A DNA stretch of 36,723 bases from Candidatus Aminicenantota bacterium (GCA_030610885.1 JAUWQW010000013.1:1-36723); one strand, 5' to 3'. Counted from the stretch's first letter, positions 4,360 to 18,375 are shown. Notes: a model not told the origin generated them from the letters alone. Numbers and translations: made by a program.

Positions 4360-4770
4360 GTGCTTCATGACTGTGTGAGGGGTGACAGTGCTTTGGCCAC
4401 AAATTTACCTTCTGCATCATTAGCAGGTGCAGTTGCCCTTGCAATAGGTATTGGAATCCAGAATTTTCCTGAAGGCACTGCAGTTTCTGTCCCTTTACGA
4501 AGAGAGGGATTATCTAGACTTAAAAGCTTTTAGTATGGGCAACTATCAGGGATTGTTGAACCCATTGCAGGAGTTATAGGTGCAGCTGCAGTAATTTGGA
4601 TGCAACCGATTTTACCGTATGCCCTATCTTTTGCTGCAGGTGCTATGATTTATGTGGTAGTTGAAGAAGTTATCCCTGAATCGCAGTTGGATAAAAATAC
4701 AGATATTGCAACAATTGGAGCAATGATAGGTTTTGCCTTGATGATGACATTGGATGTTGCTTTTAGCTAA
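4360..4770 (+). pseudogene. ZIP-family metal transporter remnant (ZupT/GufA-like)
   Basis: Frame 1 from 4381 reads [19 protein letters not shown], then a TAG at 4531, then [20 protein letters not shown] ... [19 protein letters not shown] ... [14 protein letters not shown] and TAA. These are the last membrane helices of a ZIP transporter; the HNxPEG-type metal motif appears here as QNFPEG. The N-terminal half is missing (a TGA lies upstream at 4357), and the TAG interrupts the rest. Both lesions are needed to explain why no ORF was called. The gene is dead unless the TAG is read through. Confidence 0.8.
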
Positions 4771-4821
4771 AGAAAATATAGGAGATGAATATGAATAAAG
4801 AGATTCTTCCTTTGCCTGATA
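4771..4821 (+). repeat. 51-bp direct repeat, left copy
   Basis: It matches 9428-9478 with two mismatches (t/c and g/a). It covers an RBS and the first ten codons (MNKEILPLPD) of the methyltransferase gene found intact at 9448. Confidence 0.85.
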
Positions 4822-4889
4822 ATATGATAAAACGCTCCATCAAACTCAATCCTAAGTGGGCTAGCCATATCTGTAGTATAGCTCAATAA
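4791..4889 (+). pseudogene. 5' fragment of a methyltransferase gene
   Basis: Starting 5 nt after an AGGAG, the frame reads MNKEILPLPDNMIKRSIKLNPKWASHICSIAQ and stops. The first ten residues equal those of the methyltransferase at 9448; the rest diverges. It is probably a broken copy left by the event that placed the 5125-9272 operon between the two repeats. Confidence 0.65.
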
Positions 4890-5056: not shown

Positions 5057-5079
5057 TATAACAATATAAAAAGGAGTTA
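5057..5079 (+). repeat. Shared leader element, copy C
   Basis: TATAACAATATAAAAAGGAGTTA is nearly the same as copies A and B and lies 45 nt before the racemase-GNAT start. Here too the AGGAG is too far from the annotated ATG. Confidence 0.55.
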
Positions 5080-5124
5080 GCTGCCTACTGATAAATCAGC
5101 GAATAAATTATAGGTAAAGAAATT

Positions 5125-6780
5125 ATGAATAATCAAAATGAAGACAGCCTTTCACCACCATCAGTACAAAGAGAGTACGAAGATCCCTGGAATAAGCTTA
5201 ATATTGATCTTGAAGCTGTAAAATTTAATTATCGATATTTAAAATCACAACTTCCGCCAAGAGCGATATTTTACGCTGTCTTAAAATCCGATGCATACGG
5301 ACATGATCTTAAAGAAATTGGAAAGGTTCTTTCTCAATCTGGATGTATGCACTTTGCAGTTGAATCTCCACAAGAAGGAATTCGGCTTCGTAATGAAGGC
5401 ATTACTGGTGACATATTATTAATGAATCCAATCCCCACATGGATGGCTGAATTATCTATTCGACATGATTTAAGTGTGTCTGTAATTCATGAATCCATTT
5501 TACAGCCATTAGAAGAAGCAGCTCAACTAATGGGAAAGATTTGCCGAATTCATTTAAATGTAAATATTGGATTAAATCGGATGGGGATTGCGCCATCAAA
5601 AATACTTAAAATTGCCAAAGAAGCAGCTTCTAAACCACATATTGAATTAGAAGGATTGTTTGGGCAACCCAGTGATTCTACCAGCGATCTTGAGTCATTC
5701 AAGCATTTAAAAAATATTTATGAAAAACTAAAATCAGAAGATGTCGCCCCAATTTATTTGCATTTTGCAAACAGCACTACTTTTTTAGCTCATCCTGAAA
5801 CCATTGCCGATGGTGTACGCCTGGGGATATTATTATATGGCGTTCTTCCGCCAGAACAATACAAAGTAAAAACAAAACCAAATCAATTAAAACCTGTAAT
5901 GAGCTTAAAAACAGAAATCGTACAAATTAGACAATTGCCTATAGGAAGCAAAATTGGTTACCATTCCAAAGAAAAAACAGAACGAGATTTAATAATTGGC
6001 ACAATTCCAATTGGGTATAATCACGGTTTAGATCGTAAACTATTAAACGGTGGTTATGTAATTGTTCATGAACAAAAAGCGCTATTTATTGGTGCGATAT
6101 CGATGAATTCATCAACGATAGATATTACTGAAATTAAAGATGTTGAAATTGAGGATGAAGTAGTAATAATTGGTCGACAAGGAAAACAAGAAATCAACAT
6201 AAATGAACTGGCTGAAAAATCAGATACTATTGCTGCAGAATTAATGATGCGCTTTGGAAAAAGCATAGCCAGAAATTATCAAATAGACGAACAGGATGTT
6301 ACATCAGAAATTATTATTGAACAAAAAAAAACAGATGATATTCACATTCGATATTTTCAAACAGAAAATGAATTACCTGAATGGATGAATGTTTATAATA
6401 TTGCGAATTTTTTACAAACGCATCTTATACCATTCGATGACCCAAAAGATGTTATTTCTACTGCTGTTGAATATGCTTTGTCTGCTCATCCAGGCGGTAA
6501 AGGTTTTATTTTATTAGCCACAATTAATGAAAAGCTTCTTGGCGTTGTTGTTTGTATACGAATCGATAAAGTAGGTATTATACCTGAAAATTTAATTGTT
6601 TATGTTTGTGTTCATCAAAATTATCGGGGAAAAGGATTGGGCAGTCGGTTGGTTCAAGAAGCAATTGACTGCGCGGATGGTGATGTAAAATTACACGTGG
6701 AAAAGACAAATCCCGCTATAAAGCTTTATAAAAAATTGGGTTTTAAAGATGATTATATTGAAATGCGTTTTTTGAAATGA
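5125..6780 (+). CDS. Fused alanine racemase-family protein and GNAT acetyltransferase
   Basis: Residues about 25-395 are a fold-type III PLP racemase of the Alr family. The PLP lysine is K54 in YAVLKSDAYGHD. IHLNVNIGLNRMGI, GVRLGILLYG and IGTIPIGYNHG follow the family order, and a Tyr near 278 (SKIGYHSK) takes the place of the catalytic tyrosine. Residues about 405-551 are a GNAT domain with acyl-CoA loop YRGKGLGSRL and the typical NPAIKLYKKLGF. The natural inference is that one polypeptide racemises an amino acid and then N-acylates one enantiomer. The substrate cannot be read from the sequence. The gene heads a tight operon (12 and 11 nt gaps) with a methyltransferase and a sodium symporter. 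At 551 residues it is much longer than a plain Alr (about 360-380) because of the fusion. Confidence 0.88.
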   Translation: MNNQNEDSLSPPSVQREYEDPWNKLNIDLEAVKFNYRYLKSQLPPRAIFYAVLKSDAYGHDLKEIGKVLSQSGCMHFAVESPQEGIRLRNEGITGDILLMNPIPTWMAELSIRHDLSVSVIHESILQPLEEAAQLMGKICRIHLNVNIGLNRMGIAPSKILKIAKEAASKPHIELEGLFGQPSDSTSDLESFKHLKNIYEKLKSEDVAPIYLHFANSTTFLAHPETIADGVRLGILLYGVLPPEQYKVKTKPNQLKPVMSLKTEIVQIRQLPIGSKIGYHSKEKTERDLIIGTIPIGYNHGLDRKLLNGGYVIVHEQKALFIGAISMNSSTIDITEIKDVEIEDEVVIIGRQGKQEININELAEKSDTIAAELMMRFGKSIARNYQIDEQDVTSEIIIEQKKTDDIHIRYFQTENELPEWMNVYNIANFLQTHLIPFDDPKDVISTAVEYALSAHPGGKGFILLATINEKLLGVVVCIRIDKVGIIPENLIVYVCVHQNYRGKGLGSRLVQEAIDCADGDVKLHVEKTNPAIKLYKKLGFKDDYIEMRFLK

Positions 6781-6792
6781 GTATAATAATTT

Positions 6793-7854
6793 ATGGATTC
6801 TTTGCAAAAGAAATATGAGATAGATAAACACACATGGGATGAATGTGCAGAAACCTATGAACGCCAAATTGTGGGTGGACATCCTGATATTTTAGCGTTT
6901 GAAGAATTTGAAGAAGATTTTTTAGACCGTGTCCTTCGGTATTTGTCTGAAAAACAAAAGCGTCCCATCAAATTAATGGATATAGGCTGCGGATCAGGTC
7001 GTTTGCATGTACGATATGGCACTAAAACACACAGTATAGCTGAACTCGCTCAATCACATCCTTTGTCTTTATTAAAAATGAATTCCCCAAAGCTTGCTTA
7101 CGATCCAGTTATAGCGAAAAGTCTTATAGAAGTGTGGGGAATTGATTTCTCTCGAAAAATGATTGATTTGGCAAAAGATAAATTACAAAAAGTTGGTTTG
7201 AAAAATCATCATGAAATGGCACTAACATTTGAGCAAGGTTCTGCGTTTGAGTTAGAAGAACAATCGGGCGAGATTTTACCTGTTGCGATTTGTTTGGTGA
7301 ATTCTATTGGTGTTATGCAAGGCTTTGAAGGCGCAAATGAGTTATTTAAATCAATGCGTAGAGCTGTTGAATCGGCTAATGGAATTGCCATTATTTCCTG
7401 TTATCAACAAGAATATATCAAAAGTTATGGATTAGGGCAGTATGAATCGACAATAGATGTATCAGGGCAACCTATTTGGATGCAGCCCGACACTTATGCT
7501 TCGTCTCAATTCAAACAAATTCCAAAACAATATAAACTTGCGTATAGCAATGACAATAAATTGATAGTCGATGTTTTTGACTTGCATGATAATTTAATTA
7601 AAAAGGGTTATGTTTTAGTAAGAGACCCCGACAAAACTGAACAAACTATTAAAACAGGTGATATAAATACCTATTCAAAATATAAATCGCACTGGTATAG
7701 TTATGACCATATTGAAGAATTAATAAATGACCATTGGGAAACTCAAAAATCATATCATATTAAAACGCGATATTTAGATATCATAAGAGCAGAACCAGCT
7801 CAGATGGCAATTCTTGATTTTGGCGATCATCTTAAAAACATTTTTAAGCTCTGA
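6793..7854 (+). CDS. Class I SAM-dependent methyltransferase with an insert
   Basis: Motif I is LMDIGCGSGR (about residues 60-70). The acidic ribose-binding motif VWGIDFS comes only some 45 residues later instead of the usual 20 or so, because a segment including HVRYGTKTHSIAELAQSHPL is inserted. Later parts (PVAICLVNSIGVMQGFEG, ANGIAIISCYQ) fit the Rossmann-like fold. A beta-rich C-terminal region with YKSHWYSYDHIEELI may form the substrate lid. The gene lies between the racemase-GNAT gene and a transporter, so it probably methylates the same small molecule; this is inferred from operon position only. No good RBS is seen, and translation may be coupled to the gene before it. Confidence 0.82.
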   Translation: MDSLQKKYEIDKHTWDECAETYERQIVGGHPDILAFEEFEEDFLDRVLRYLSEKQKRPIKLMDIGCGSGRLHVRYGTKTHSIAELAQSHPLSLLKMNSPKLAYDPVIAKSLIEVWGIDFSRKMIDLAKDKLQKVGLKNHHEMALTFEQGSAFELEEQSGEILPVAICLVNSIGVMQGFEGANELFKSMRRAVESANGIAIISCYQQEYIKSYGLGQYESTIDVSGQPIWMQPDTYASSQFKQIPKQYKLAYSNDNKLIVDVFDLHDNLIKKGYVLVRDPDKTEQTIKTGDINTYSKYKSHWYSYDHIEELINDHWETQKSYHIKTRYLDIIRAEPAQMAILDFGDHLKNIFKL

Positions 7855-7865
7855 AAGGTGTTGTA

Positions 7866-9272
7866 ATGGAAAATCCCTGGATTCAATACATAATCATTGT
7901 TGTCTATTTTATTTTTATTGTTACGAAAGGAATTCGTCGCTCAAAAGAAATTAGTGATAGTGATGACTTTTTAGTTGCGGGACGTAATATTGGCTGGTTT
8001 TTTCTGCTTTGTACAATGGGGGCAACAGTCGTAGGTGGCGGCGCTTCAATTGGCGCTATTGGCAGAACTTATGAGTGGGGAATCCTGATGTTAGCGGTTT
8101 CTTCTGGCTGGTACATTCATTTTATATTTTCTGGTTTATTTGTAGCTCCCCGTTTTCGTGAAGCAGAACTTTATACTGTTGCTGGATATTTTGGTTATCG
8201 ATTTGGGGCGAAAAGTCGATTTATTGCTTTTATATTATCGCTTCTTTTTTCCATAGGTATATTAGGCGCGCAAATGGTGGCTTTCGGGAAAATCATCACG
8301 ACAATGATTCCTCAGTTATCTTACTTTTGGGCTGTTATTATTGGCGGTGGCATCGTTATTTTATACAGTACTGCTGGCGGACTGTTAGCTGTTATTCATA
8401 CTGATGTTTATCAATTTATTATATTAATTGTTGGTTTTGCGATTACTTTAATTCTTTGTGTACCTGATTTATTAACGAGCGCTAACCAAATTTCTGTTGT
8501 TGTGCCTACAGAATTTTTTCAATTAGACGGTGGAAAAGGTTGGTTATTTTTAGTGACGACGTTTATTGCCTTTTTATTAGGAGAAACATTTGCACCAAGC
8601 TATGCGACCAGATATTGTGTTGCCAAAAACATTAAAGAAACAAAGCAGGGTATTGTTGGCGCTGGTGTCTTTTTAGCATTAACATTTCCCATAATATTAT
8701 TTTTTATTGCTCTTTATGCCCGATTGCATTTCCCCAATATCGATCCGGAAATGGCGTTGCCAAAAACTATACTAAAGTTGAATAATCCTTATGTAGGTGG
8801 TTTAATTATCGCTGCTTTAATGAGTGCAGTTATGTCATCTGCTGATTCAATACTAAACTCATCTACTGCAATCTTTGTTAAAGATCTATACGAAGAATAT
8901 ATTGCTAAACTAAATACTAATACCCAAAAAGGTCTTTTAATTGCTCGTGTTAGTTCAGTAGTTTTAGGTGGATTAGGAATCCTTTTAGCGCTTATTTTAC
9001 CTAATATAATTGATTTGCTTCTTTTAACTTACAATCTTTGGGCTCCAGGTATTATTTTACCTGTAATTTTTGGTATATTTTCAAAACAAAGGTCAAAATC
9101 TTTAAACAATATTATTTTTATAACAATGCTCATTTCTACTGTTGCAACTATTGGCTATATGAATACGCAATATAAAGAAATAATTCAACCCAGTGTATTT
9201 GGTGTGGTTGTTTCATGTATATCCTTTTTAATATTAAAGATAACATTAATTAAGAAAAAAGGCAGAAAATAA
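7866..9272 (+). CDS. Sodium/solute symporter (SSS family)
   Basis: This 468-residue protein has about 12-13 hydrophobic helices. It shows family features: DDFLVAGRNIGW after helix 1, TVVGGGASIGAIGRTYEWG, the AELYTVAGYFGYRFG segment, GGLLAVIHTDVYQ, and SAVMSSADSILNSSTAIFVKDLY, which carries the Ser residues of the Na2 site. Members (PutP, PanF, SGLT-like) import amino acids, vitamins or sugars with sodium. An AAAGGTG box lies before the ATG. Placed last in the racemase-methyltransferase operon, it probably imports the pathway substrate or recovers its product. Confidence 0.9.
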   Translation: MENPWIQYIIIVVYFIFIVTKGIRRSKEISDSDDFLVAGRNIGWFFLLCTMGATVVGGGASIGAIGRTYEWGILMLAVSSGWYIHFIFSGLFVAPRFREAELYTVAGYFGYRFGAKSRFIAFILSLLFSIGILGAQMVAFGKIITTMIPQLSYFWAVIIGGGIVILYSTAGGLLAVIHTDVYQFIILIVGFAITLILCVPDLLTSANQISVVVPTEFFQLDGGKGWLFLVTTFIAFLLGETFAPSYATRYCVAKNIKETKQGIVGAGVFLALTFPIILFFIALYARLHFPNIDPEMALPKTILKLNNPYVGGLIIAALMSAVMSSADSILNSSTAIFVKDLYEEYIAKLNTNTQKGLLIARVSSVVLGGLGILLALILPNIIDLLLLTYNLWAPGIILPVIFGIFSKQRSKSLNNIIFITMLISTVATIGYMNTQYKEIIQPSVFGVVVSCISFLILKITLIKKKGRK

Positions 9273-9427
9273 ATTCATAAATTATGGGTAAAAATAGGGA
9301 CAGAGACCATTTATTTTATAAAGGTGTTTACTAAGTATTCAGCCAGGACAGTTGATTGACTTAAATAATCTTTAATGTTACTTTAATATGTAATCTATAA
9401 TAACATAAAAAGATATTATATCTTAAA

Positions 9428-9478
9428 AGAAAACATAGGAGATGAATATGAATAAAGAAATTCTTCCTTTGCCTGATA
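9428..9478 (+). repeat. 51-bp direct repeat, right copy
   Basis: Partner of 4771-4821 (49 of 51 identical). The two copies bracket about 4.6 kb containing the racemase-GNAT/methyltransferase/symporter operon. Confidence 0.85.
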
Positions 9479-10149
9479 AAAACGGCATTATAAAAGCACT
9501 TCCCATAGATATATCCAGAGAAAACATGCAGAGGATTAAGAAATTCGGGGCTTTTATGTTTTTATATGACTTTGCCCAGGATCGTTTTGTAAGGCCATGT
9601 ATTCATAAGGCTGACCCAAAAAAACATCGTGAAATACTGAAAAATCTAATTTCATCAGTAAAAAACTCCCGTGTTTTTGATATTGCCTGTGGAACTGGAG
9701 GTGCGATCACCTACTTTGATAGAAGCAATGAATATACAGGTCTTGATCTGTCATATTCTATGCTAAAGCAGGCTGTGAAAAAGGCTAAAAAGAAATCATT
9801 TCAAAAATCCAGATTTATTCAGGGAAATGCGGAAAAACTTCTTTTCGATGATGAATCTTTTGACTTTGTTTTAATGGACACAGCCTTGCATATGATACCT
9901 GAATACCATATGGCTATTGCAGAAATATCAAGGGTACTAAAAAAGGGTGGGGTATTTGTATGCAGTACTCCTGTTGTTGGAATCAGCAAAAAATTCGATT
10001 TTACGTGGAAGAAAATTTCAGACAAGCGAGACCTTCATTCTTTTTATGAAGCGGACATCCAGGATGCCTGCTCTCGTAATGGCTTAATATATATTCGTTT
10101 TAACACAAATGGTGGTGTACTCTATTTCCACGCACAGAAAAGAAAATGA
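9448..10149 (+). CDS. Class I SAM methyltransferase (UbiE/methyltransf_11-like)
   Basis: Motif I is VFDIACGTGGAI, the acidic motif is YTGLDLSYSM, and FDFVLMDTALHMI and RVLKKGGVFVCSTP complete the standard order. About 233 residues. I place the start at the second ATG (9448), 6 nt after AGGAG, because the ATG at 9442 touches the RBS. The substrate is unknown. A broken copy of the start lies at 4791 directly behind the ZIP remnant, so this gene may once have followed that transporter. It converges on the histidine kinase gene. Confidence 0.85.
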   Translation: MNKEILPLPDKNGIIKALPIDISRENMQRIKKFGAFMFLYDFAQDRFVRPCIHKADPKKHREILKNLISSVKNSRVFDIACGTGGAITYFDRSNEYTGLDLSYSMLKQAVKKAKKKSFQKSRFIQGNAEKLLFDDESFDFVLMDTALHMIPEYHMAIAEISRVLKKGGVFVCSTPVVGISKKFDFTWKKISDKRDLHSFYEADIQDACSRNGLIYIRFNTNGGVLYFHAQKRK

Positions 10150-14877: not shown

Positions 14878-15483
14878 GTGAAAGCAAATAATTTAATGTT
14901 CTCTGATGATGAAATTATAAAATCAGTTAAAAGTGGTAAAACTCAAAATTTTGAGATTATTATCAATAAATATAATAAAAAGGTATTGAATTTCATTAAT
15001 AGAATGATATTTGATCATGATGAATCTCAGAATATAAGTCAGGATGTTTTTTTTAAAGTATATGAAAATTTAAATAGATATAAAATGGAAGGAAATTTTC
15101 AGGCTTTTATATTTAAAATTGCAAAAAATTTAACTTTAAATTATATAAAAAAGAAAAAGCGTGTGCTTTTTTTTTCAGAACATTTTTATAATGGTATAGA
15201 GGGAAAATATTTTCAATATGAGGCAACACAATATAAAAATATTGAGGATAAAGTAAAAGAAGAATTGCTTATTTCATCTATAATGGAATTGAAAGAAAAT
15301 CAGAAAATTGCATTAATCTTAAAAGTTTATCTTGATTTTTCTTATAAAAATATTTCAAAAATAACAGGTTGGTCTATACCAAAAATCGAAACATTAATTT
15401 CAAGGGCAAAGAATACTTTAAAAAGAAAAATATTTCTGCAAGAAAATAAAGATAAGAATGTTTACAAAGTGAGGGAAAAATGA
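14878..15483 (+). CDS. ECF (RpoE-like) sigma factor
   Basis: This 201-residue protein has region 2 (YNKKVLNFINRMIFDHDESQNISQDVFFKVYENLNRYK ... FQAFIFKIAKNLTLNYIKKKKR) and region 4 (ENQKIALILKVYLDFSYKNISKITGWSIPKIETLISRAKNTLKRKI). It is followed with a 4-nt overlap (ATGA) by a zinc-finger anti-sigma gene and then two Spy-like genes, a typical envelope- or metal-stress operon. The GTG start sits directly after an extended -10 box; an in-frame ATG at 14896 is the alternative. It probably directs transcription of its own operon after release from the anti-sigma factor, by analogy with known ECF systems. Confidence 0.88.
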   Translation: MKANNLMFSDDEIIKSVKSGKTQNFEIIINKYNKKVLNFINRMIFDHDESQNISQDVFFKVYENLNRYKMEGNFQAFIFKIAKNLTLNYIKKKKRVLFFSEHFYNGIEGKYFQYEATQYKNIEDKVKEELLISSIMELKENQKIALILKVYLDFSYKNISKITGWSIPKIETLISRAKNTLKRKIFLQENKDKNVYKVREK

Positions 15484-15926
15484 AATGTAATAGAGTTAAA
15501 CTCTTGTTAAGTTCTTTTCAAGATAATGAACTTACAGAGAAGGAAAGAGCTGAAATCTTTTTACATTTAAAGAAGTGTGAAAAGTGTAAGTATGAATTAG
15601 AACAATTGGAGAACCTGAAAAAAGAAATAAAAAACTTAAATGAATTTGAACCAATACAAAATTTTACTTCTTTAGTTATGGATAAGATCAATAGAAAAAA
15701 GAGATTCAATATGTTTTCTATTCCCTCCCTGGTCTACTCATTTACTTTTATTCTCTTTTTTATTTTAGGATTCCTCATAAATGGCCCTTTAAAAAATAAT
15801 GTTGAAAACAAACAAAAAGAGATTTATATTTCTAATTTGCTCATGCAGGGCCAAGAATTGAGTTTGATTAATGTTCAAGATAAAACATTTAATATGTTGT
15901 ATAATGGTGATATAAATGAAAAATAA
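15480..15926 (+). CDS. Zinc-finger anti-sigma factor, membrane-anchored
   Basis: Residues 1-40 form a zf-HC2/ZAS domain: CNRVKLLLSSFQDNEL ... FLHLKKCEKCKYEL, with the HxxxCxxC ligands. One transmembrane helix lies at about residues 80-100 (FNMFSIPSLVYSFTFILFFILGFLI), and a short outer domain of about 45 residues follows. The topology fits holding the ECF sigma at the inner face while the outer part senses the envelope. It overlaps the sigma gene by 4 nt and the next gene by 11 nt. Confidence 0.85.
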   Translation: MKCNRVKLLLSSFQDNELTEKERAEIFLHLKKCEKCKYELEQLENLKKEIKNLNEFEPIQNFTSLVMDKINRKKRFNMFSIPSLVYSFTFILFFILGFLINGPLKNNVENKQKEIYISNLLMQGQELSLINVQDKTFNMLYNGDINEK

Positions 15927-16380
15927 ATGGATTAAAATAATTTTAGTTGCTTCTCTTACATTTAATATTGCTTTTATTTCAAAGGCAATTTACAATAGAG
16001 CTTTTTCAAAGGGCAAAACAAGTGCGGAGGATTTAACATTAAAAACCAGAATAGCACTTAATAATGACCAGAAAGAGAAATTAAGCTTAATTATGAAAAG
16101 ATTTAGAATTAATTTAGTCAAGTCTAAGAAGGATGTGCTTGAGAAAAGGATTGATATAATAGAGCAATTGAGTGACCCTGAATATGATCTGGATATTTTA
16201 AGAAGTAAAACAAATGAGCTTAGCGAAATTGAAAATCAGCTAAATCTAACTTTTGTTGAAACTTTGGTTGAAATAAGTGATGTTTTGAATTCTAAACAGA
16301 GACTCAATTTTTTGTTGAACTTGAGTGAAAATTGGTTTTTTATAAAACAAAAAGAGAACAATATAAAAAAGCTTAGGTAG
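15916..16380 (+). CDS. Membrane-anchored Spy/CpxP-like periplasmic sensor
   Basis: The N-terminus has a signal-anchor (KWIKIILVASLTFNIAFISKAIY). The rest is helical with the pattern TLKTRIALNNDQKEKLSLIMKRFRINLVKSKKDVLEKRIDIIEQLSDPEYDL ... VETLVEISDVLNSKQRLNFL, close to the heavy-metal-resistance/Spy-like families (CnrX, ZraP) in which the repeated 'L..eQ..kl' motif forms a four-helix hook. It probably works with the anti-sigma factor as stress sensor or chaperone. Translation overlaps the anti-sigma gene. Confidence 0.7.
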   Translation: MKNKWIKIILVASLTFNIAFISKAIYNRAFSKGKTSAEDLTLKTRIALNNDQKEKLSLIMKRFRINLVKSKKDVLEKRIDIIEQLSDPEYDLDILRSKTNELSEIENQLNLTFVETLVEISDVLNSKQRLNFLLNLSENWFFIKQKENNIKKLR

Positions 16381-16411
16381 ACATATATGTCTGCTAATAA
16401 AGGAGCAAAGC

Positions 16412-16912
16412 ATGAAGAAAAAATTAATGATTGTTATTATATGCTTGGTTGCATTTCTATTTAACTTGAATTTAAAAGCAAATATAGAAGGTCGAGATAT
16501 AATAAAAAAAAAACAAGCGGGTATTTTTTTAGCAGGAAAAAATCTTTTTGATGCCAGATTTATAATGAGATTTAAAGAAGATATTAATTTGAGCAAAGAG
16601 CAAGAAAAAAAAGTTGAGAATTTATTATTAGCATTTGAAGAAAACTCAATTAAGAAGAGTGCTGAGATAAAAATTAGAGAATTAAGATTTGCTTCATATT
16701 TAAATTCAGAAAAAATTAACAGGGGAAAAATAGAGAGACAATTAAAAACTATCAGTAAGATGAAGACAGATTTTCTTATTGATTATATTAATTATCTTTT
16801 AGATTTAAAGCAAATAATGACACCTGTACAAATTGAAAAATTAAAGGAAATTAAAAAGGGAATTATTATGAAATTTATAAAATTAAAAAAGAAAAATAAA
16901 GTAATACATTAA
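16412..16912 (+). CDS. Exported Spy/CpxP-like protein
   Basis: A signal peptide (MKKKLMIVIICLVAFLFNLNLKA-N) precedes a helical, very basic mature domain. Two Spy-type motifs are seen: DINLSKEQEKKVENLLLAFEENSIKKSAEIKIRE and DLKQIMTPVQIEKLKEIKKG, corresponding to the LTxxQ repeats. It follows the anchored paralogue by 31 nt with RBS AAAGGAG. This is a likely periplasmic chaperone or output of the sigma operon. Its stop codon lies in the loop of the bidirectional terminator that follows. Confidence 0.75.
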   Translation: MKKKLMIVIICLVAFLFNLNLKANIEGRDIIKKKQAGIFLAGKNLFDARFIMRFKEDINLSKEQEKKVENLLLAFEENSIKKSAEIKIRELRFASYLNSEKINRGKIERQLKTISKMKTDFLIDYINYLLDLKQIMTPVQIEKLKEIKKGIIMKFIKLKKKNKVIH

Positions 16913-18075: not shown

Positions 18076-18375
18076 TTATCTGAAGGAATTTCTTTTTTTC
18101 CAATATTTTGGTTTTCGGTTCAGATGCATTACTGCAATTATTATTATCTCCTTTTCCTTAATTTGATAAATGATTCCATAAGGGAATCTGTTTAATAAGC
18201 ATCTTCGTGTATTTTTAGATAGAACTGTCCATGCTTTAGGGAATGAAACAATATTTTCAACCGCAAAACAAATCTCCTTAGCGAATTCAAGTCCTAATCC
18301 TTCTTTACACTGATTATAATAGTCAACAGCTTCATTTAACTCTCTCTCAGCATCAGGATAAAACGAAAAATTCAT
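18076..18375 (-). CDS. ParE/RelE-family toxin
   Basis: 99 residues with the family pattern FSFYPDAERELNEAVDYYNQCKEGLGLEFAKEI ... ENIVSFPKAWTVLSKNTRRCLLNRFPYGIIYQI ... IIAVMHLNRKPKYWKKR. The ending H-x2-R-x-P-x-YW is typical of ParE-like toxins, which poison gyrase or cut mRNA. It overlaps the antitoxin gene by 4 nt, as is common in such pairs. Confidence 0.87.
   Translation of the reverse strand: MNFSFYPDAERELNEAVDYYNQCKEGLGLEFAKEICFAVENIVSFPKAWTVLSKNTRRCLLNRFPYGIIYQIKEKEIIIIAVMHLNRKPKYWKKRNSFR

Follow-up and report, generated by a model that had tools for sequence, protein, structure and literature searches.

The window, that is, the whole 36,723-nucleotide stretch of Candidatus Aminicenantota DNA analyzed here, is an entire contig of a 2.5-Mb genome. 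It carries three co-directional genes, encoding an alanine racemase (Alr)-GNAT acetyltransferase fusion, a methyltransferase, and a sodium:solute symporter (SSS), separated by gaps of 12 and 11 nt, exactly as called in the first-pass annotation. The features of the locus were as follows (evidence in parentheses).

4769..4822, plus strand: left-hand 54-bp direct repeat, matching the right copy at 52/54 positions
5078..9285, plus strand: transferred unit of 4.2 kb, 89.9% identical to G297 (L019) (blastn, boundary sequences)
5125..6780, plus strand: racemase-acetyltransferase fusion, 551 aa (Pfam, NCBIfam, homologues L002, L003, L004, L010, L018, and L005)
5197..6279, plus strand: alanine-racemase-like domain, residues 25-385 (TIGR00492, Pfam, tree)
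5284..5286, plus strand: codon of the PLP lysine, K54 (invariant across all compared racemases)
5959..5961, plus strand: codon of the second catalytic base, Y279 (invariant across 23 compared racemases)
6337..6777, plus strand: GNAT domain, residues 405-551, with the acetyl-CoA motif RGKGLG (Pfam, family alignment A5)
6793..7854, plus strand: class I SAM-dependent methyltransferase, 353 aa (domain matches, fold model with PDB matches)
7866..9272, plus strand: SSS family transporter, 468 aa (PF00474, 2e-45)
9426..9479, plus strand: right-hand 54-bp direct repeat (comprises the leader and initial codons of gene 9442-10149, which is intact)

Between the window and its counterpart L002, dN/dS values of all three genes were 0.12 to 0.18, which indicates purifying selection. 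An Rfam scan of the window detected no known RNA, and the promoter and terminator scan was uninformative (35 promoter-like sites versus 25 expected). Elsewhere in the window, genes for a sigma factor, a zinc-finger anti-sigma-like protein, and a heavy-metal-resistance-like protein lie in a row (14878-16912) and form an ordinary ECF-type stress regulator cluster, and a ParE-type toxin gene is located on the minus strand (18076-18375).

The proposal that a racemase and an acetyltransferase are joined in one polypeptide was borne out by matches to Ala_racemase_N (6e-46), Ala_racemase_C (3e-35), and GNAT (6e-14) within a single open reading frame. The fusion scored 257 bits against the TIGR00492 alr model, above its cut-off of 168, and its homologues (L002, L003, L004, L010, L018, and L005) were 56 to 88% identical. 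The racemase half has kept its PLP lysine: K54 is the lysine previously pointed out in AVLKSDAYGHD, a motif that reads YGHD in the window and YGHG in the relatives. Along with K54, the catalytic tyrosine Y279 (which we take to be the equivalent of Tyr265 of Geobacillus Alr), the pyridine-nitrogen arginine R232, and the substrate arginine R152 are invariant, and both the PLP and the acetyl-CoA motifs are intact. Compared with 15 other alanine racemases, those of the fusion clade retain K54, Y58, R152, H213, R232, Y279, and Y298 and have the pocket changes H181Q, K145N, D300H, Y302L, and Y371A, at columns where no more than 3 of the 15 deviate from the consensus. Position 145 is presumably that of the carbamylated lysine of classical Alr; both this lysine and the canonical alanine pocket are absent from the fusion. 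It is likely that the substrate has been altered relative to Alr. The fold model of the fusion had a mean pLDDT of 64.6, with a poor GNAT half, and was left out of the fold search.

In the racemase tree, the fusion racemases formed one clade (support 100/100) on a long stem, separate from housekeeping alr. A gene above the alr cut-off was present in each of the nine genomes tested, and all six genomes with an Alr-type cassette (G000, G388, G162, G326, G297, and G412) had at least one extra alr outside it. We considered the fusion as the housekeeping racemase supplying D-alanine; the separate, above-cut-off alr of the window genome (G000:C104) disfavors this, so that the fusion probably does not serve as that enzyme. 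The fusion resembles Alr in its fold, PLP lysine, catalytic tyrosine, and model score but departs from it in the C-terminal GNAT domain, the modified pocket, and the presence of a housekeeping alr elsewhere in the genome.

The methyltransferase, with MDIGCGSGRL as motif I, matched class I models weakly (2.6e-9). It had rightly been called unusual: NCBIfam offers no good match for it, and a long insert separates its motif I from the acidic motif II. Most PDB matches of its fold model (mean pLDDT, 72) were small-molecule methyltransferases, and several belong to the amine N-methyltransferases. Among the best fold matches were glycine/sarcosine N-methyltransferase, CcbJ, CypM, MtfA, and EgtD, although identity was about 10% and TM-scores were low (0.3 to 0.43 by query length), and the window protein is longer and has its own C-terminal half. 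Its most plausible role, as far as we can infer, would be to N-methylate the product. The third gene is indeed an SSS transporter (SSF domain, 155.8 bits versus a gathering score of 22.8), with orthologues at 58 to 93% identity. Its sequence allowed no substrate assignment, as the best solved relatives were choline, sugar, and monocarboxylate transporters with weak scores.

Far from being rarely found together, the three genes occurred in the same order in four more genomes, spanning two phyla: G297 (L002/L019), G412 (L003, a KSB1 record), G162 (L010), and G326 (L018). Within these complete copies, the genes overlap or are a few bases apart, and partial copies were found at contig ends in L004 (fusion and start of the methyltransferase) and L005 (racemase half). 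Since it recurs in four other genomes, the order is not due to chance. The methyltransferase was detected in two other genomes of a 297-genome sample of the phylum and convincingly in three others of the 142 genomes of the class, and hence the set is rare and patchy. A search of a plasmid collection with the methyltransferase gave no match, and all seven convincing matches adjoin a GNAT of the family described below.

Genome G297 belongs to the same class as the window genome but to a different family. Both share 4,208 bp at 89.9% DNA identity (window 5078-9285; blastn), a stretch that begins 47 bp before the first ATG and ends 13 bp past the last stop codon, and there was no further blastn match between the rest of the window and the 19-kb G297 region. 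Because the similarity ends precisely at the operon, we conclude that the operon moves as a unit. The window and L002 racemases grouped in the tree with the KSB1 copies and not with L010 and L018, which are of the same class. The G+C content of the operon is 34% versus 29% for the remainder of the window. A binning artifact was ruled out, as two further genomes of the genus match the contig's flanks at 87 to 97%. The 54-bp repeat on both sides suggests an insertion with target duplication; since gene 9442-10149 is intact and has the right copy as its leader and start, the left copy is the duplicated, truncated one. In G388, a genome of the same genus, the contig ends at the homologous point of the insertion site. 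Altogether, there is hardly any doubt that the operon is a real, mobile, and functionally coherent module.

A loose neighborhood of unrelated enzymes, in which the fusion would simply be an additional alanine racemase without a special role, is scarcely credible. Every part does come from a large and common superfamily, but the order is conserved in two phyla despite different flanks, and the precise transfer of the unit, the purifying selection on all genes, and the non-orthologous replacement of the racemase (see below) all speak against it. The flanks also bear on a second possibility, in which the operon would provide a D-amino acid for building a cell-surface polymer, a lipid, or a secreted signal; acetylated and methylated, it would be attached to the envelope or released from it. 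Many bacteria release non-canonical D-amino acids, and glycosyltransferase-9-like, sulfotransferase, or sulfatase genes adjoin the operon in L002 and L010. However, these neighbors are not shared by the window, KSB1, G274, and G388 copies, the similarity stops exactly at the three genes, and the cassette is devoid of a ligase, an activating enzyme, and an exporter, so we consider such a role improbable.

Using the GNAT profile (A5), we found further members of what is apparently an undescribed cassette family, whose distribution beyond the two phyla comes from the plasmid collection. At all 18 places inspected, the cassette GNAT was fused or adjacent to an amino-acid isomerase, which could be Alr, an ornithine-racemase-like enzyme (Orr-like), both of these, or a lysine-2,3-aminomutase-like enzyme. 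An SSS gene was adjacent in 14 of the 18, and two of the other four places are at contig ends; no SSS was visible beside the G404 GNAT-Orr pair or the second pair of Persicobacter. Across the family, cassettes may have or lack the methyltransferase and an M20 deacylase; as most related cassettes do without the methyltransferase, it is an accessory. In Acetoanaerobium (L034:5143-6420), a distant GNAT of the same family was also seen in fusion with a threonine-synthase-like fold-II PLP enzyme.

The version in G274 (L009) has, in this order, a MarR-GNAT fusion, an Orr-like enzyme of 378 aa, the methyltransferase (44% identity), and the SSS (58%). Here, the GNAT is joined to MarR instead of a racemase, and since the methyltransferase and SSS are kept beside the Orr-like enzyme, Alr has been replaced by another PLP fold-III family. 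This enzyme, which has no Ala_racemase_C match and in this differs from Alr, fills the racemase place in cassettes of the G274 type and matched ornithine racemase Orr (NF040742) at 2e-83, but its 280 bits are below the cut-off of 480, and its substrate is therefore not assigned. The order MarR-GNAT, Orr, and SSS, without the methyltransferase, was found in G113, G250, G122, and G180, while in G196, also without it, the GNAT lacks MarR and is followed by Orr and SSS. In G388, a tight operon comprises GNAT, an M20 amidohydrolase, Alr, Orr, and SSS, and the same gene set is present on a Persicobacter plasmid (Bacteroidota). GNAT-Orr pairs were found in G404 and G405 and at another locus of the same Persicobacter plasmid (L044:9349-11202), where Orr is 83% identical to the first.

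In the KSB1 genome G474, the isomerase is lysine-2,3-aminomutase-like (TIGR03820, 1.3e-114; 383 bits, below the lysine cut-off of 525) and is accompanied by a distant member of the GNAT family (E value, 3.6e-19) and an SSS that is 54% identical to that of G388. The SSS of G388, Persicobacter, and G474 are only about 25 to 28% identical to the window type. The same four gene families, in the same order, precede the different cassettes of G474 and the L005 genome: a sigma-54 regulator (68% identity), a response regulator (37%), a zinc-ribbon protein (44%), and an FKBP-type isomerase (42%). In L003, an FKBP gene (44%) lies directly before the Alr-GNAT operon.

L079:2359-5334, L005:1453-4201, and L003:5525-5977: KSB1 upstream block

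This block may belong to the regulation of the cassettes. By their gene neighborhoods, the aminomutase-GNAT-SSS and Alr-GNAT versions appear as alternative cassettes in one KSB1 slot, and this common slot, along with the M20-Alr-Orr version of G388, makes the cassettes look functionally equivalent.

The swapping of isomerases also bears on a possible resistance module, in which an inhibitor-insensitive racemase would be combined with an acetyltransferase and a methyltransferase to render a small-molecule inhibitor harmless. Horizontal transfer, a modified Alr fused to GNAT, and weak matches to VanT and AAC-like models fit this explanation. Nevertheless, it does not account for the exchange of Alr for Orr or an aminomutase, the SSS importer is a constant, and the VanT models are far below their cut-offs (259 versus 460 bits), making resistance very unlikely.

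The MarR half of the G274 protein provided a different kind of evidence. Its plasmid relatives are MarR genes, which adjoin ectABC operons in the three annotated records opened (3/3); it is 44% identical over 153 aa to an ectABC-linked MarR and 46% identical to a Vibrio MarR. Proteins of the EctR/CosR type repress genes for ectoine and other compatible solutes (PMC7876524, PMC5924519). The fusion is present in G274, G113, G250, G122, and G180, and MarR is absent from the window copy.

L009:9767-10873; also L051, L052, L053, and L055: MarR-GNAT fusion

Such an EctR/CosR-like MarR-GNAT chain is possibly regulator and enzyme in one, responding to what its own active site produces. Besides, the M20 enzyme of G388 is closest to amidohydrolases and DoeB2 (5e-53, below the cut-off). 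The cassette shares with the ectoine system a GNAT that would acetylate a diamino acid and, in relatives only, this MarR domain and the M20 enzyme close to DoeB2. In contrast to that system, it has a racemase in place of the aminotransferase, no cassette copy contains ectB, ectC, or aspartokinase, and the GNAT is not EctA (18 bits against a cut-off of 120.6).

A 2,3-aminomutase and an acetyltransferase acting in succession are the known way of making the osmolyte N-epsilon-acetyl-beta-lysine (PMC12776343, PMC4685198). The reason given for acetyl-lysine osmolytes is that N-acetylation turns the positively charged lysine into a neutral zwitterion. The cassette has the same two-step logic as this ablA-ablB pathway, an amino-acid isomerase plus a GNAT acetyltransferase, and the relative in G474 pairs its GNAT with a KamA-family aminomutase and an SSS. 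The window, unlike this pathway, has a PLP fold-III racemase fused to GNAT rather than a radical-SAM aminomutase and adds the methyltransferase and SSS; its GNAT fits none of the equivalog models for known acetyltransferases. There is no lysine 2,3-aminomutase beside the window acetyltransferase, a KamA-family gene occupying that place only in G474, and no AblB model was among the NCBIfam matches at E values up to 1. Taken together, the MarR, aminomutase, and M20 evidence suggests that the isomerase makes an unusual beta- or D-isomer, which the GNAT neutralizes.

Accordingly worded for the window, our proposal is that the operon makes an osmolyte of the N-acetylated D-amino-acid type, to which we give a chance a little short of even. 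The Alr domain would invert an amino acid to its D-form; ornithine, lysine, or another diamino acid is the likeliest candidate, the Orr-like partner (2e-83) being what favors a diamino acid. The fused GNAT would then N-acetylate the D-amino acid, so that a reactive, charged precursor of proteins would become a neutral zwitterion that is metabolically inert; the methyltransferase could N-methylate the product further, toward a betaine-like solute, and the Na+ symporter would take up or recapture the product or its precursor. In this scheme, we infer the osmotic role, which amino acid is the substrate, that the product has the D-configuration, and where it is acetylated and methylated.

Synthesis of an osmolyte is favored by the pairing of GNAT with interchangeable isomerases at 18/18 places, by the known osmolyte route through an aminomutase and an acetyltransferase, and by the sharing of one KSB1 slot by alternative cassettes. 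The EctR/CosR-type MarR domain on the GNAT of relatives and the proximity of the G388 M20 enzyme to DoeB2, the N-acetyl-diaminobutyrate deacetylase of ectoine catabolism, point in the same direction, as do the separate housekeeping alr with the changed racemase pocket and the amine N-methyltransferases among the fold matches. It is weakened by the fact that the EctR-like MarR, the aminomutase, and the M20 enzyme are found in relatives and not in the window, that the GNAT is neither AblB nor EctA by NCBIfam and is distant in G474, where the aminomutase also falls below the lysine cut-off, and that the SSS of G388, Persicobacter, and G474 differ so much from the window type. The low TM-scores and the pLDDT of the methyltransferase model, as well as the G404 and second Persicobacter pairs without a visible SSS, weigh in the same sense.

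The alternative raised at first, detoxification of a D-amino acid, is less well supported than osmolyte synthesis. In its broader form, the SSS would import a D- or N-acetyl amino acid and the racemase would restore the L-form as a nutrient, with the GNAT (and M20 in some relatives) reversibly buffering a toxic D-amino acid and the methyltransferase as an accessory. D-Amino acids are common in anoxic sediments, the SSS adjoins the racemase, and G388 and Persicobacter have the M20 deacylase, all in keeping with scavenging. Yet no cassette copy includes a D-amino-acid oxidase, dehydrogenase, or deaminase, acetylation and methylation are of no help to catabolism, and the EctR/CosR-type MarR domain and the aminomutase version are left unexplained; we therefore regard scavenging or detoxification as unlikely, if less so than an envelope building block.

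As for the four-activity pathway originally suggested, its core stands: the set is conserved and co-occurs strictly, and L009 substitutes a non-orthologous Orr-like enzyme while keeping GNAT, methyltransferase, and SSS. Not supported as originally worded is the part of the methyltransferase, which is an accessory, and import need not come first. Searches of open-access papers returned nothing relevant on a racemase-GNAT pathway or a D-ornithine osmolyte; within these papers, no description of the racemase solution, the fusion, or the methyltransferase came up, while the logic of isomerase plus GNAT is already known. Slightly more doubtful than the osmolyte itself, but a real possibility, is a new class of compatible solutes, N-acetylated and here N-methylated D-amino acids, made by cassettes of an exchangeable isomerase and GNAT, with a racemase where the known route has an aminomutase, that pass horizontally from phylum to phylum and replace each other in one genomic slot.

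The analysis poses a concrete substrate question for GNAT and methyltransferase families that currently have no assigned function, and Persicobacter is a culturable carrier of the cassette. If the proposal is true, it would bring a further biosynthetic principle to osmoadaptation, in which an amino acid is made inert by inversion, instead of by a shift of its amino group, and is then neutralized by acetylation. It would also tie D-amino acids, which are common but poorly explained in marine sediments, to the salt tolerance of uncultured lineages.
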